Positions 12,584 through 23,577 of a stretch of 26,433 bases of DNA are shown piece by piece (the first letter of the stretch is position 1; each line of letters opens with the position of its first letter). The stretch is taken from positions 1 to 26,433 of IMG/VR virus record IMGVR_UViG_3300032304_000618. The stretch is one strand, 5' to 3'. A program made the position numbers and the translations under genes. Under the pieces are notes generated by a model, which had not been told where the DNA came from, searched no databases, and saw only the letters and a list, made by a program, of their open reading frames with translations. Origin of the DNA: a virus.

Positions 12584-14443
12584 TTAGATGAATGTACGAT
12601 CTTTCTCGGCGAGCAATTCATCTATATTGATAACTGTTCGCTTGCCTATCTCACTACGAGACAGGAATGGATTTTTCATATGGTGGGTCTTGTGCATACC
12701 TTGGTTGAGCATCTCGCGTGCGCGGATCTCACAGAACCAAAGAGCCATCACCATATCTGTTTTGCCTTTGGTCGTAGGCGACCAGGTGATTAGTTGCTCG
12801 ATGAGCGCCTTAATGTTTTCAGTTTGGTCAGAAGGTAAATGAATAAGGTTGTCTCTGTGGTGCTTACCATCGTGTTGCTTGGTCCCAAACAAAGTTGACA
12901 TTGATGCAACACCAAAGCCTGAGTCCCACTTGTTGGATCCAGTATGGTGTTCCCGCAGTAGCACTCCTCTGGAGGCCAGGTTCTGACGGATTCCCTCATC
13001 TTGCGTAAGGAATGATTGGAAAGCATTCTTTTCTACAATCCACTCGGTAGGCTGGTAGAGCGCAGTCCAGTCAAAGATTATCTGACGGATTGCAGCAGGC
13101 GTAGGACGAGTAATCTTAATAGCATCAACGATATAGCGTTTATGACTAACCCGATCAATAGCGTAACAAACGACGGCTGTATCACCAACCATAGCGGGAT
13201 CAAGACCACAAATAATTGAAAAGCCACTAAGGTCACGCGGATGGCCTGGGTGACCAGGAACCAAGCGACCTGCTTTACGCATACCATCTATAGAACCTCG
13301 CACACATACTGGGTCAAAGATTGCATCATCTGATATATCCTGCTGCTGGTAAACCAGCGCCCAGGTAGATGCATCCATTGCTTGTCGTTCATTGTAAAGG
13401 TTACGACCATTCCATCTAGGGTATAGTCCATCCTCATTCAAATCTGATTCTGTCTGTCCATCAAAAGGAGCATCAGATGCTGGCCACAAGGTAACCCACT
13501 TATCGGGGTCTTCGTGTGTTTCTAGTAATGCTGGCATAGCCAAGTACTTCCACGGGACCAGTCCACCAGGGTAGCGGTCTTCGGAGCGTAGTTCTTTGTA
13601 GAGATCAATTGCTGTAACGCGGGTACCAATAATGATTAACTTACCAGTAGGGTTAAGACGAGAGCGCACATCCTGAGTTAACCAGCGAATTTGTTTCTCA
13701 AACTCGTTAGCGTTCTTTAAGGTAATAGCGTCATCGACAATAATCATATCTGCACGCTTACCGTAGATCTGACCACCGATACCGACGGCTTCGATGTTTG
13801 GATCCTTTTCAGATGACTCACGGAGTTCATCACCAAAGGTCACGCGGGTTGCTTGCCAGGAAGCGGTCTTAGAGTTAAACCCTACGCCAGCAGCGTAAGC
13901 CTGTTGCAGTGCTTCATAGTTAGGATGAGTCAGGCGTTGCTTGATGGCGTAGAGAAAGTCGGCTGCTAGTTGCTGAGTCTGAGAGACAATCAGCACACGA
14001 AAGTTAGGATTCTGACATACCTGCCAGGTAACGTAGTCAATAGTGACCGTCATCGACTTGGCGTGGTTGGGCGGGATATTGATAAGGATACGGTTACTAG
14101 CCAGCCCTGGTTCGTACTTCATACTGGGATGTAGCCAGCCAGGTTCCCTACCCTCGATTACATCTATGAGGTTTTGCTGATGAGCAAAGGTCTTAGAGTG
14201 TAGGTAGCGTTCACGGAACTGGGCAAAGGTTAAGTCGTGGACATCGGATGAGGCAAAGTTCTTATCCTTTAACCCTAGCCGTGTTCGGTCCATCTTGTCT
14301 GCAAAGACCTTATCGGTCCTGCGGTAGTACTCGTAGGTCTTATAGGATTTACCAGATGCAGCCGTGGCTGCCTCGATGGTTAGACCTTCTGCTACACCTG
14401 AAAGGATCAGACGCTTGGCGATGTCACTGGACTTCTCCGTCAT
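12584..14443 (-). CDS. terL: terminase large subunit, 619 aa
   Basis: This is the ATP-driven DNA packaging motor and headful/site nuclease. The ATPase domain shows a variant Walker A PPNHAKS (residues 124-130), Walker B IIVDD (234-238) and a coupling motif IIIGTR (270-275). The C-terminal RNase-H-like nuclease has acidic residues D415 (in GLDPAMVGD), E471 (VEKNAF) and D563 (KTDMVMALW). The first 60 residues may carry a helix-turn-helix-like segment, as if part of a small-subunit function were fused. GGAG stands five bases before the ATG. It is the first gene of the leftward late module, preceded by a long structured leader. Confidence 0.95.
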   Translation of the reverse strand: MTEKSSDIAKRLILSGVAEGLTIEAATAASGKSYKTYEYYRRTDKVFADKMDRTRLGLKDKNFASSDVHDLTFAQFRERYLHSKTFAHQQNLIDVIEGREPGWLHPSMKYEPGLASNRILINIPPNHAKSMTVTIDYVTWQVCQNPNFRVLIVSQTQQLAADFLYAIKQRLTHPNYEALQQAYAAGVGFNSKTASWQATRVTFGDELRESSEKDPNIEAVGIGGQIYGKRADMIIVDDAITLKNANEFEKQIRWLTQDVRSRLNPTGKLIIIGTRVTAIDLYKELRSEDRYPGGLVPWKYLAMPALLETHEDPDKWVTLWPASDAPFDGQTESDLNEDGLYPRWNGRNLYNERQAMDASTWALVYQQQDISDDAIFDPVCVRGSIDGMRKAGRLVPGHPGHPRDLSGFSIICGLDPAMVGDTAVVCYAIDRVSHKRYIVDAIKITRPTPAAIRQIIFDWTALYQPTEWIVEKNAFQSFLTQDEGIRQNLASRGVLLREHHTGSNKWDSGFGVASMSTLFGTKQHDGKHHRDNLIHLPSDQTENIKALIEQLITWSPTTKGKTDMVMALWFCEIRAREMLNQGMHKTHHMKNPFLSRSEIGKRTVINIDELLAEKDRTFI

Positions 14444-14461
14444 CTGCTCTCCTCTAATAAA

Positions 14462-14474
14462 GCGCCGAAGGCGC
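14462..14474 (-). terminator. hairpin just upstream of the terminase ribosome site
   Basis: GCGCC-GAA-GGCGC is a perfect 5-bp stem. On the minus strand it is followed by TTTATT and then the terminase ribosome binding site, so it could act as an attenuator or weak terminator of leader transcription. On the plus strand it is followed by GAAAAAAATTTTTT. Confidence 0.4.
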
Positions 14475-14491
14475 GAAAAAAATTTTTTATA

Positions 14492-14690
14492 CGAGGGGCG
14501 TAGCCCTCGAACGGAATCACAGATTCCTTTACTAGGGGAAGTATCTCTATACTGGAGATAGTCCTATCCCCACTAAAAGCGGTGCCGTGCACCGCACCAT
14601 TCGGGCTTAACGCCCGAGCAAGCCACAGCGCAGCGAGGGGTAAGTTGGTGCTCGTCCTAGGGGGACTCGCGTAGTGCCAACGTAGCGAGT
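14492..14690. repeat. cluster of six consecutive stem-loops
   Basis: Perfect or near-perfect inverted repeats are at 14492-14509 (CGAGGG/CCCTCG), 14513-14527 (GGAATC/GATTCC), 14535-14571 (outer GGGGA/TCCCC, inner TATCTC/GAGATA), 14581-14593 (GGTGC/GCACC), 14601-14617 (TCGGGC/GCCCGA) and 14665-14690 (ACTCGC/GCGAGT). Together they would fold the 5' leader of the late transcript into a chain of hairpins. They are not copies of one repeat, so duplication alone does not explain them. Confidence 0.6.
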
Positions 14691-14774
14691 AACGGTCGTA
14701 AAACTAGTACTGGTTCGTTTTACTCCCTACTATATATAAGGCAGGAAAAATAACCGATTTCCCGTCTACGGTAT

Positions 14775-14804
14775 ATTTTATTTACGTTTTGTGACTAAGG
14801 TCAC
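14775..14804 (-). promoter_or_regulatory. candidate leftward promoter for the late operon
   Basis: On the minus strand GTGACC (14804-14799) and TAAAAT (14780-14775) are separated by 18 bases and match the sigma-70 boxes at 4/6 and 5/6. The -35 box lies inside the TGTGA-N6-TCACA operator. Transcription would begin near 14768 and give a leader of about 325 bases before the terminase gene. Confidence 0.35.
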
Positions 14805-14805
14805 A
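14790..14805. promoter_or_regulatory. CRP/GlxR-type operator
   Basis: TGTGACTAAGGTCACA is a perfect palindromic match to TGTGA-N6-TCACA, the site recognised by CRP-family regulators such as actinobacterial GlxR/Crp. It overlaps the -35 box of the candidate leftward promoter and touches a TAGAAT at 14806-14811 on the plus strand. Host cAMP-responsive control is inferred, not shown. Confidence 0.5.
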
Positions 14806-14816
14806 TAGAATATGTG
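14802..14816. repeat. inverted repeat next to the operator
   Basis: CACATA-GAA-TATGTG is a perfect 6-bp inverted repeat that shares four bases with the right half of the TGTGA-N6-TCACA site. It could be a second overlapping operator or part of a composite site. Confidence 0.4.
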
Positions 14817-15307: not shown

Positions 15308-15348
15308 AAGAGCGAAGGGCTCTTAGATATAGTTGAAAGTTCAACTAT
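15308..15348 (+). promoter_or_regulatory. leader hairpin and 20-bp operator-like palindrome
   Basis: AAGAGC-GAAGG-GCTCTT (15308-15324) is followed by ATAGTTGAA-AG-TTCAACTAT (15329-15348), a perfect 9-bp inverted repeat with a 2-base centre. The tight spacing of the second suits a dimeric repressor site better than an RNA loop. Both lie between the promoter and the GAAGGG ribosome site of the first gene, a good place to gate early expression. Confidence 0.5.
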
Positions 15349-15366: not shown

Positions 15367-15564
15367 GTGCTAGACACTAACAATTCAACATTCAACAAGG
15401 AAATAACAAGAGCATTAATCAAAGAGATGAAGGCCCGCGGATTAAGTGAAAAGGCCGCCGCATACGTCTGCTCTAACTATGACTTCACCTCTTACCTTTT
15501 GGAGGGCTCACTCTCACACTTAGAGAAGCAAATCTACGAAGTAGAAACAGCGGCGGGCTTCTAA
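15367..15564 (+). CDS. small helical protein, 65 aa (GTG start)
   Basis: First gene of the rightward operon. The product begins MLDTNNSTFNKEITRALIKE and is predicted helical, with a segment KARGLSEKAAAYVCSNYDF that faintly recalls a helix-turn-helix, but I do not assign it. GAAGGG lies eight bases before the GTG. Its stop overlaps the next ATG in TAATG. A role in early takeover or self-regulation is only suggested by position beside the operator-like palindrome. Confidence 0.65.
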   Translation: MLDTNNSTFNKEITRALIKEMKARGLSEKAAAYVCSNYDFTSYLLEGSLSHLEKQIYEVETAAGF

Positions 15565-18739: not shown

Positions 18740-18951
18740 CAGCCCAACTCCTTCTCAATTGCTCGGATGGTTGGGCAGGGATAGATGTGAGCGCACCAAC
18801 ACATAAATTCTTCTTTGGTTGGTACCCAATCTGGTATCGGACTTGGTGTATGTAATTCCACTACTGCACTAAGAGCAAAATGAATATCTAAATGGTCGCA
18901 TCCAGCGTTGCGCTTTTCCCATAACTTCATAATCAATTCATCGTGTGTCAT
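18739..18951 (-). CDS. small protein with C-terminal Cys cluster, 70 aa
   Basis: The product begins MTHDELIMKLWEKRNAGCDH and has a helical N-terminal half, a Pro-rich centre (HTPSPIPDWVPTKEEF) and an end with three closely spaced Cys (MCWCAHIYPCPTIRAIEKEL). Metal binding is possible. Its ATG overlaps the stop of the sigma-like gene (ATGA). I do not recognise a family. Confidence 0.6.
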   Translation of the reverse strand: MTHDELIMKLWEKRNAGCDHLDIHFALSAVVELHTPSPIPDWVPTKEEFMCWCAHIYPCPTIRAIEKELG

Positions 18952-19613
18952 TGGTAAGGCGACTCCCCTCCCATAAAGTTAAGTATCTTACGTAATGCAT
19001 TGGAACATCTGCGATCAGCAGTAGAGATAGCACACTCTGTTGCCTCACTTAACTGTTGCAGTGTGTAGTTCTCGTGGTATCGAAGGCGCAAGATGTTCTT
19101 CTCATCTTCATCTAGTAGTTCATAAGACTTCTTGATGTCAATCAGTGTGGCTAACAGGTTGCCACCTTCTGCGGGTGCAGCAGGCTTACGTGGTGTGCCA
19201 TCATTGACTAGGTTCTGTGCCTGTTCAATGGCGGTCTCATTGACCACGCTTGCGATAACATATGGTAACAACTGTGCAATGGTAGTTACATCATAGAAGG
19301 ACTCATCATTGGTCTGGTATCCAGACCTAGTAGCCTTCTCCTTGCGGGCATAGCGTTCAAGTCCACGTCGCATCTGAAATGCAATACGCTTCTGATTGAT
19401 AAGGCGTTTAGTATCATCTTCTTCTGCAAGTAACCCATTGAAATAGGACACACGTGTCATCAACCAAGCGTATGCTTCTTGCGTGAGATCAGCACGATCT
19501 ACATACTTACGATAGCGACGGTGCACAGTGGTGACCACACTAGGCACAAGGTCAGCAAGTATTGGGTGTGGATCAGTCACAATCAGGTTCCAAAACTTCA
19601 GGCCATACGCCAT
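18948..19613 (-). CDS. phage sigma-70-like factor, 221 aa
   Basis: The C-terminal 58 residues resemble sigma region 4: LDEDEKNILRLRYHENYTLQQLSE followed by a helix-turn-helix with an Arg-rich recognition helix (STADRRCSNALRKIL). Residues 30-55 (VHRRYRKYVDRADLTQEAYAWL) recall region 2.1-2.2. The middle is unusual and may be lineage-specific. It could direct host RNA polymerase to phage promoters, most likely the late ones. The start is uncertain because the upstream ribosome site is weak; this frame overlaps the preceding gene by 41 bases. Confidence 0.75.
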   Translation of the reverse strand: MAYGLKFWNLIVTDPHPILADLVPSVVTTVHRRYRKYVDRADLTQEAYAWLMTRVSYFNGLLAEEDDTKRLINQKRIAFQMRRGLERYARKEKATRSGYQTNDESFYDVTTIAQLLPYVIASVVNETAIEQAQNLVNDGTPRKPAAPAEGGNLLATLIDIKKSYELLDEDEKNILRLRYHENYTLQQLSEATECAISTADRRCSNALRKILNFMGGESPYQ

Positions 19614-22124: not shown

Positions 22125-22948
22125 CAGACTCGCAAGTATGCTCTGCCTTGTGCATCTTGATCTCCAATCTGACAGGAAGCAAAGTTAACAAATAGTGTAG
22201 CCCATTGTGATGCATCTGCTGTGTGAGGACCGAAGCGATTCTTCACTGCAGCAACCCGCAACATCCCTTGTCCTGGATCATAGCCTAATGTAAGTATCAG
22301 TGCTGGTAACTGACTGACCTTACCGTGGATAGCACGTCGTGGTGGTGGCATCATCGGGGATCCATACTCACTCTGCTCTGATACGTGATGAAGTACTAAG
22401 ACACAAGCCTCTGTCTTGCGTGCCATATCGTGCAACTCCATCATAATTGCACGTAGCCCTGCCCATTCGTTGTCTGTTTCGGCTGCAACATTCATTAAGT
22501 TATCGATGATAATTAACTCAGGTGCTATGCCAAAGAGTTCAACGTAGGCTTTGATTTCTAATTCAATGTCATCTAGTGATGGACTTGAATCAAACACCCA
22601 TTGTATGTGCGACATCTTAGATAGATGGTCAGCGTAGTAGTCAGGTTTGTAATCCATATTGGTTTCAACTGTTAACTGTGTGTGTCCTGAGATCTGCGCT
22701 GCAGATCGCATCAACACCGTAGCAGTATCAGTATCTGCGGAAAAGAAAAGTGTTGGTACCTTTGCCTTGATTGCATAGACAAGAGCAAACATACTCTTGC
22801 CAGCATTAGGTGCAGCAGCAACCATACATACTTGCCCTCGTCTAAACTTGATGGACTGAGCAGACAACCCAGTCCATACATCAGGCAGTGGCACAGCCTT
22901 AATAGTGCTAGTGCCTAGCGCCCTCTTTAGATTAAGCAACTTCCTCAT
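22124..22948 (-). CDS. RecA-fold ATPase, DnaB/RepA-like helicase, 274 aa
   Basis: Walker A APNAGKS (46-52) follows the strand QVCMVAA; Walker B LIIIDN is at about 145-150; a conserved ACVLVLHHVSE strand follows, as in DnaB/RadA-type ATPases. The N-terminal DnaB domain is absent, so this is a minimal hexameric helicase or RadA-like recombinase. A TTG at 22957 is in frame, but the ATG at 22948 is preferred, with GGAGG only two bases away, an unusually tight spacing. It overlaps the WhiB gene by 17 bases. Confidence 0.8.
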   Translation of the reverse strand: MRKLLNLKRALGTSTIKAVPLPDVWTGLSAQSIKFRRGQVCMVAAAPNAGKSMFALVYAIKAKVPTLFFSADTDTATVLMRSAAQISGHTQLTVETNMDYKPDYYADHLSKMSHIQWVFDSSPSLDDIELEIKAYVELFGIAPELIIIDNLMNVAAETDNEWAGLRAIMMELHDMARKTEACVLVLHHVSEQSEYGSPMMPPPRRAIHGKVSQLPALILTLGYDPGQGMLRVAAVKNRFGPHTADASQWATLFVNFASCQIGDQDAQGRAYLRV

Positions 22949-23198
22949 CCCCTCCAAGATTTATTCTGCGAACTCTTCTTACTGCTAGGCGTTCACGTGG
23001 TGACAAACCACCCCATATACCGAAATGTTCTTTGTAGATTCCCCACTCAGCGCATTCGATCTTATGAGTACAAGCCTTGCAGATTGATTTCGCATACTGA
23101 CTTTCACCAAGACTTACTGTTCCCTCTTTGTCAGGGAACCAGAAATCTCCACCTATCTGTGCACATAGCGGGTTCTCGTACTCACGAGGTTCCCGCAT
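22932..23198 (-). CDS. whiB: WhiB-family transcription factor, 88 aa
   Basis: Four Cys (12, 40, 43, 49; the last three in CKACTHKIEC) ligate a [4Fe-4S] cluster, followed by the GIWGG turn (60-64) and a basic tail (RERLAVRRVRR) that contacts DNA. WhiB proteins bind the host principal sigma factor and alter promoter choice. The open frame reaches 23279, but this ATG lies five bases before the upstream stop and gives a normal WhiB length. The family is restricted to Actinobacteria and their phages, so this fixes the host phylum. Confidence 0.9.
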   Translation of the reverse strand: MREPREYENPLCAQIGGDFWFPDKEGTVSLGESQYAKSICKACTHKIECAEWGIYKEHFGIWGGLSPRERLAVRRVRRINLGGDEEVA

Positions 23199-23202
23199 TG
23201 AA

Positions 23203-23577
23203 TTATCGCAAGAAGATAGGGTCGCACTTATCTGCTGCACCCTTTGGTGCAGAACACATCCACGCTTTCCACGGTCCACGTGCTGATGTTCCAGTACGGA
23301 AGGTCATATTGCCGTGCTTACAGGTAGGTGCCTGTCCTTCTGTAACTACTGGAGCAGGTGCTGCAACTGGTGTTGCCCCAAATGATTCTGCAACTGATGC
23401 AACTGTTGGTGCTGGTGTACCACGTAGTGATCCATTAACAGAGTTAATCAATGACGATACATCCTGCACACTAGCAAGTAGTGCTTCTAATTCTGCTTGA
23501 TTGTCTGCGTAAACATTAACGAGTACGCCATCCTTACCATAGTTGACTTGGATCTTTGTTGTTGCATTTGCAGCCAT
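23203..23577 (-). CDS. zinc-binding phage protein, 124 aa
   Basis: Residues 8-45 form a small alpha/beta segment. A Pro/Ala/Val/Thr-rich linker follows (about 50-82), then a probable zinc site with Cys86, His88, Cys108 and Cys118 (TCKHGNMTF, WMCSAPKG, KCDPIFLR). GGAGGAAAGTAA precedes the ATG. The arrangement of a binding domain, flexible linker and zinc ribbon suits a single-strand DNA or replication accessory protein, but that is inference. Confidence 0.65.
   Translation of the reverse strand: MAANATTKIQVNYGKDGVLVNVYADNQAELEALLASVQDVSSLINSVNGSLRGTPAPTVASVAESFGATPVAAPAPVVTEGQAPTCKHGNMTFRTGTSARGPWKAWMCSAPKGAADKCDPIFLR

Follow-up and report, generated by a model that had tools for sequence, protein, structure and literature searches.

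GlxR of Corynebacterium glutamicum recognizes the consensus TGTGANNTANNTCACA (PMC4254451), binds the ctaE-qcrCAB promoter (PMC7026483) and mostly activates, by recruiting RNA polymerase (PMC4254451, PMC7026483). A host regulator of this family can also act directly on phage promoters: cAMP-CRP represses the pir, dam and recE promoters of E. coli phage T1 (PMC6737242), and the expression of this phage follows host metabolism. Planktophila phages E7 and F5 were isolated on 'Ca. Planktophila' LanE-43 (PMC10202952), in a study whose main text makes no mention of the operator described here. In the open-access literature we found no paper on GlxR or Crp sites in actinophages, an absence which by itself proves little.

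The stretch of viral DNA that we analysed (26,433 nucleotides, hereafter the window) encodes a WhiB protein and a sigma factor, which identifies it as an actinophage, together with many small proteins without a family. Its nearest named phages are E7 and F5, with about 46% TerL identity; they and the G2 actinophages (PMC10202952) resemble it in their related TerL, WhiB and sigma factor. Between the leftward terL and a rightward block of small ORFs beginning at 15367 lies a noncoding stretch of 0.9 kb, which contains a CRP/GlxR-type palindrome of 16 bp (Table 1). We propose, with a probability of roughly 0.7, that the Crp/GlxR protein of an actinobacterial host binds this palindrome, which the phage retains in order to control a promoter.

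Table 1. Features of the window discussed in the text (strand - is that of terL).
Feature	Position	Strand	Basis or remarks
CRP/GlxR-type operator TGTGACTAAGGTCACA (terL strand TGTGACCTTAGTCACA)	14790..14805	.	sequence, conservation, GlxR consensus TGTGANNTANNTCACA of PMC4254451
Overlapping palindrome CACATA-GAA-TATGTG	14802..14816	.	only the block AATATGTGTACAAA beside the operator is conserved
TerL (large terminase subunit), which opens the leftward block	12584..14443	-	PHROG 38, E 2e-65
TATATATAGT, conserved; probable -10 of the promoter reading towards terL	14729..14738	-	hexamer TATAGT at 14734-14729, predicted start about 14722; spacing to the operator fixed within each clade
Imperfect inverted repeat GGGAAAT-n-ATTTTTCC, between operator and -10	14744..14763	-	conserved in clades A and B
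TAAAAT, -10 of the initial annotation	14775..14780	-	in a stretch that only the window's own clade has
Leader between probable start and terL	14444..14722	-	strongly conserved in clades A and B, several hairpins
Sigma factor	18948..19613
WhiB	22932..23279

The exact TGTGA-N6-TCACA reported by the initial annotation is present, and it is the only copy in the window. When up to two mismatches are allowed, 13 matches are observed for 17.1 expected, with no excess over shuffled sequences. Since loose matches stay at chance level and 26 kb hold a single perfect one, the window alone is weak evidence, and it is the comparative data that decide. The central two bases of this operator are AA/TT and not TA.

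A TerL search retrieved 80 IMG/VR loci with 89-100% amino-acid identity, and the operator is found, exact or with one or two changes, in every close relative with measurable upstream DNA. Indeed, the conservation in relatives that had been proposed as a check is there: the half sites and the 6-bp spacing are kept while the N6 itself varies (CCTTAG, CCTTGG, TGAAGG, TGCAAC, TGTAGT and others). In the region upstream of terL in the window's group, TGTGA-Nk-TCACA occurs 27 times at k = 6 and at most once at the remaining values of k between 0 and 16. We also considered that the palindrome could act as an RNA hairpin and rejected this, as in clade B the N6 is free to vary and does not pair, which a DNA dyad fits better. 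A second, overlapping site, CACATA-GAA-TATGTG, had also been noticed; the motif is present in the window, but its palindrome is lost in relatives, where the three middle bases and one half site change.

Across 63 sequences (the window and its terL relatives), the operator, perfect or slightly degraded, lies at a clade-specific fixed distance from TATATATAGT. In clade A, to which the window belongs, its centre is 63.5 nt upstream of TATAGT in 42 of 42 sequences, window included; in clade B this distance is 47.5 nt, in all 21. If transcription starts 12 nt on from the first base of the -10 hexamer, the operator is centred at -75.5 and -59.5, respectively.

The same pattern recurs in more distant freshwater phages. 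The F5 genome carries two perfect sites upstream of terL, and the 1.3 kb or less examined upstream of terL in 80 F5-type loci contained 62 perfect sites and 6 with one mismatch against no match to the reversed control pattern; some of these loci have no perfect site within 1.3 kb of terL. Over 34 whole records we counted 47 perfect sites versus a single reversed-pattern match, 7 of the 34 being devoid of any perfect site. Here too the spacing is strict, with 62 occurrences of TGTGA-Nk-TCACA at k = 6 and none or one at any other k between 0 and 16.

Furthermore, the F5-type sites are in phase with a promoter element. TTGACA is found within 45 nt, on the strand reading away from terL, at 35 of the 57 distinct sites (about 1.8 expected by chance, at any gap). 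The gap corresponds to one, two or three helical turns in 33 of these 35, namely 10-11 bp (18 sites), 21 bp (11) and 30-31 bp (4), the exceptions being single cases at 0 and 27. For a 10.5-bp turn the phase coherence is R = 0.91, a value obtained on related and hence not independent loci, yet with widely differing intervening sequences. A TATAAT-like hexamer (at least 4 of 6 bases) follows the TTGACA in 16 of the 34 examined, usually after 15-16 nt; in L129 all six bases agree. Several of these sites have small ORFs starting 100-130 nt further on, and where the site occurs a second time it stands before a second ORF cluster. Judged by its layout, this is a class I arrangement, with a host-type promoter that faces away from terL and that bound Crp would be expected to activate.

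In nine Streptomyces phages of the Beephvirinae type (43-46% TerL identity), two sites form a pair upstream of terL, each perfect or with one mismatch. In the eight for which a TATAAT-like box (TATATATAAT-like) could be located, 46-57 bp separate the paired sites, and the distance from the proximal one to the box is 48.5-50.5 nt, despite the divergence of the intervening sequence, which places the operator at -60.5 to -62.5. This conservation at a fixed place, in the window's phage and in many related actinobacterial phages, suggests the borrowing of a host control protein.

Which promoter would the operator serve? In class I CRP promoters, such as those of the lac type in E. coli, the dyad centre is near -61.5 or -72.5, in helical steps to the promoter. 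A position close to -61.5, or whole turns further, fits the Streptomyces phages and clade B, and the F5-type phages by their phasing; the window's clade differs, with its -75.5 and no -35 match. With a shared -10, the 16 bp (about 1.5 helical turns) by which the positions in clades A and B differ are incompatible with a single activation geometry. TTGACA at phased gaps was found on neither side of the operator in the window, clades A and B or the Streptomyces phages. In the absence of a phased TTGACA, the terL promoter is the better candidate in the window's clade, at an unusual distance, TATATATAGT being the nearest conserved promoter element; GGGAAAT-n-ATTTTTCC is possibly its -35 region. 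We thus envisage that bound Crp would contact RNA polymerase and activate the promoter in class I style: in the F5-type phages, the one facing away from terL towards small early-type genes; and in the Streptomyces phages and clade B, where the operator centre is near -60, probably the terL one.

The initial annotation had instead placed the operator over the -35 box of a leftward late promoter. The overlap with GTGACC-18-TAAAAT is real, but this candidate scores only 9/12, and a scan of the window for such promoter-like sites returned 3 where shuffles give 1.7 (sd 1.5). That it is the late promoter is not supported by the relatives, in which the conserved -10 is TATATATAGT and the TAAAAT stretch is missing from clade B. 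Late control as the sole role of the operator is likewise at odds with the F5-type sites, phased with a promoter that faces the other way. Between that promoter and terL, the leader of about 280 nt shows a few compensatory changes and a shuffle z of only -1.8. An Rfam search of the window gave no match.

These same data bear on the alternative that survives best, in which host Crp acts as a repressor or organiser and, in the window's clade, covers the weak TAAAAT promoter or the divergent one, shut until Crp is lost. The overlap of the operator with the -35 position of GTGACC-18-TAAAAT would agree with this, as would the position -75.5, which is no standard activating one. But clade B has no TAAAAT, and the spacings in the F5-type and Streptomyces phages are activating ones, so that we regard repression as unlikely, though the most serious competitor of activation.

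Is there a protein to read the operator? Neither the window nor any of 22 related phage records contains a detectable HTH_Crp_2 domain. We reached candidate hosts through the acI FISH probe AcI-852 (PMC3699509), whose sequence, searched as a DNA pattern, matched LanE-43, the host of F5; a terminase search of the genome contigs for a prophage or other host link gave no match. A single clear Crp is encoded by each of six Nanopelagicales, LanE-43 among them. That of LanE-43 aligns to M. tuberculosis CRP with an E value of 1.5e-79, and its TGTGA-reading helix is identical. From its relatives and its WhiB, the host of the window's phage is presumably an actinobacterium like theirs, and would carry a Crp of the same kind, binding the operator as a dimer. 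On the phage side, position 8 is a T in 52 of the 76 half sites of 38 distinct pooled phage sites, in agreement with the GlxR consensus. The proposed CRP/GlxR operator thus stands as a prediction from sequence: it is conserved and lies in the control region upstream of terL; the likely hosts encode a Crp that fits it, and the phages examined showed none.

The host genomes themselves treat the motif in a particular way. In the 1.43 Mb of LanE-43, GTGA-N6-TCAC occurs once, versus a mean of 28.6 at the other spacers (2-12); P. versatilis has 8 copies versus a mean of 42.9. When all 256 tetramers were compared at N6, GTGA was the most depleted in P. versatilis, and its ratio in LanE-43 was undercut only by that of CCCC, for which counts are very small. 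Four further Nanopelagicales genomes have 8, 9, 5 and 6 copies at N6 against 23, 33, 44 and 20 at N7. In five of the six hosts a copy lies just upstream of ctaE, and in LanE-43 it is the single one of the genome; the sixth has a similar site, with no adjoining ctaE in the stretch examined. We considered whether the Crp regulon is enriched in the host, and the opposite is seen: the noncoding DNA of LanE-43 has no TGTGA-N6-TCACA even with one mismatch. We also set aside avoidance of a restriction site as the cause of the depletion, as F5 infects LanE-43 with its sites intact and the hosts retain the one at ctaE. A simple reading is that Crp binds GTGA-N6-TCAC strongly and that stray sites would be selected against. 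More speculatively, and with the odds against it, Nanopelagicales Crp may work without cAMP and be dedicated to very few promoters (ctaE and respiration), nearly all other strong sites having been purged. An infecting phage genome would then hold most of the best Crp sites and draw Crp to phage promoters, perhaps off the respiratory operon.

This special treatment of precisely a TGTGA-N6-TCACA-type pattern by the hosts also weighs against a reader encoded by the phage (the WhiB, the sigma factor or a small protein), the likeness to GlxR being then a convergence. Such candidates do exist in the window, with its many small proteins without a family, but the N6 spacer and the NNTANN centre agree with GlxR, and we hold this explanation to be improbable. 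Recognition of such a dyad is not known for either WhiB proteins or sigma factors.

A part in a replication origin or packaging site, bound by an initiator or the terminase, appears more improbable still. The operator does lie beside terL in a long noncoding region, and TTATCCACA repeats are found near it in a few relatives; but second copies are placed like operators, with separate small divergent genes beginning about 100 nt downstream, and the helical phasing to TTGACA also speaks against it. A chance palindrome, which only the shuffle-level number of loose matches in the window would favour, is refuted by all the conservation evidence.

What would Crp report to the phage? The initial reading, in which the phage senses host cAMP or carbon state, is left unsupported for Nanopelagicales hosts, which have a Crp but no visible usual source of cAMP. 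A search for class III adenylate cyclase (PF00211) was negative in six complete Nanopelagicales genomes and in 41 genomes of the family, while the same search recovered it in C. glutamicum; the CYTH domain (PF01928) was likewise absent from the six complete genomes. Other cyclase classes or imported cAMP may still supply the ligand, and the nucleotide-pocket motif FGELSLFDPGPRTS of M. tuberculosis CRP is almost unchanged in LanE-43 Crp. Because the likely hosts appear to have no adenylate cyclase, the operator would rather report the presence of Crp, or another ligand. The cyclase search covered Nanopelagicales hosts; cAMP sensing may still apply to the Streptomyces phages.

Compared with the known systems, the locus resembles the GlxR regulon in its consensus and in the ctaE promoter site, which acI hosts also keep; it differs in that the site sits in phage genomes and that the likely hosts show no adenylate cyclase. 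With coliphage T1 it would share direct action of host CRP on phage promoters and a coupling of phage expression to host metabolism. In T1, however, CRP represses and cAMP is the signal, whereas here the geometry suggests activation and cAMP is doubtful; the phages and hosts are unrelated. Unlike the F5-type sites, mostly on a promoter facing away from terL, that of the window is nearer to the terL promoter. The action of host CRP on phage promoters is already known. The new element is an actinobacterial Crp site across a wide range of actinophages, in class I geometry and with hosts lacking a visible cyclase, for which binding and the direction of the effect are predicted. Nanopelagicales rank among the most abundant bacteria of fresh water, and transcription control in their phages is little known. 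A host-regulator site common to freshwater and Streptomyces phages offers an entry point for cultured pairs (LanE-43 with F5; Streptomyces with Abafar or JXY1), in which what Crp senses becomes testable in cells seemingly without adenylate cyclase. Moreover, motif avoidance with a conserved ctaE exception is an unusual sign of a transcription factor shaping a whole streamlined genome.

Several other motifs accompany these sites. In the window, a palindrome ATAGTTGAA-AG-TTCAACTAT at 15329-15348 just precedes the rightward ORF at 15367, and its TAGTTGAAnnTTCAACTA motif recurs on the terL side of the Crp sites in F5-type phages. Another palindrome, TTGTCGACAA, recurs about 35-60 nt to the terL side of the Crp site in F5-type loci such as L084, L085 and L093. 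CGGAAC, which resembles an ECF sigma -35 box, starts 4 nt to the terL side of the site (GGAAC at offset 5) in 15 of 57 F5-type cases, and the phages encode a sigma factor. The DnaA-box-like TTATCCACA, or the similar TATCCACA, is found near the Crp site in L099, L160 and L162; it is repeated in L099, where an origin is possibly nearby. Finally, the L113-L124 group has, at about -283 from terL, TGTGAC[CG]TACGTCACA followed by two hairpin-like stretches and then a TATAGTATA box, an arrangement unlike those of both other groups.
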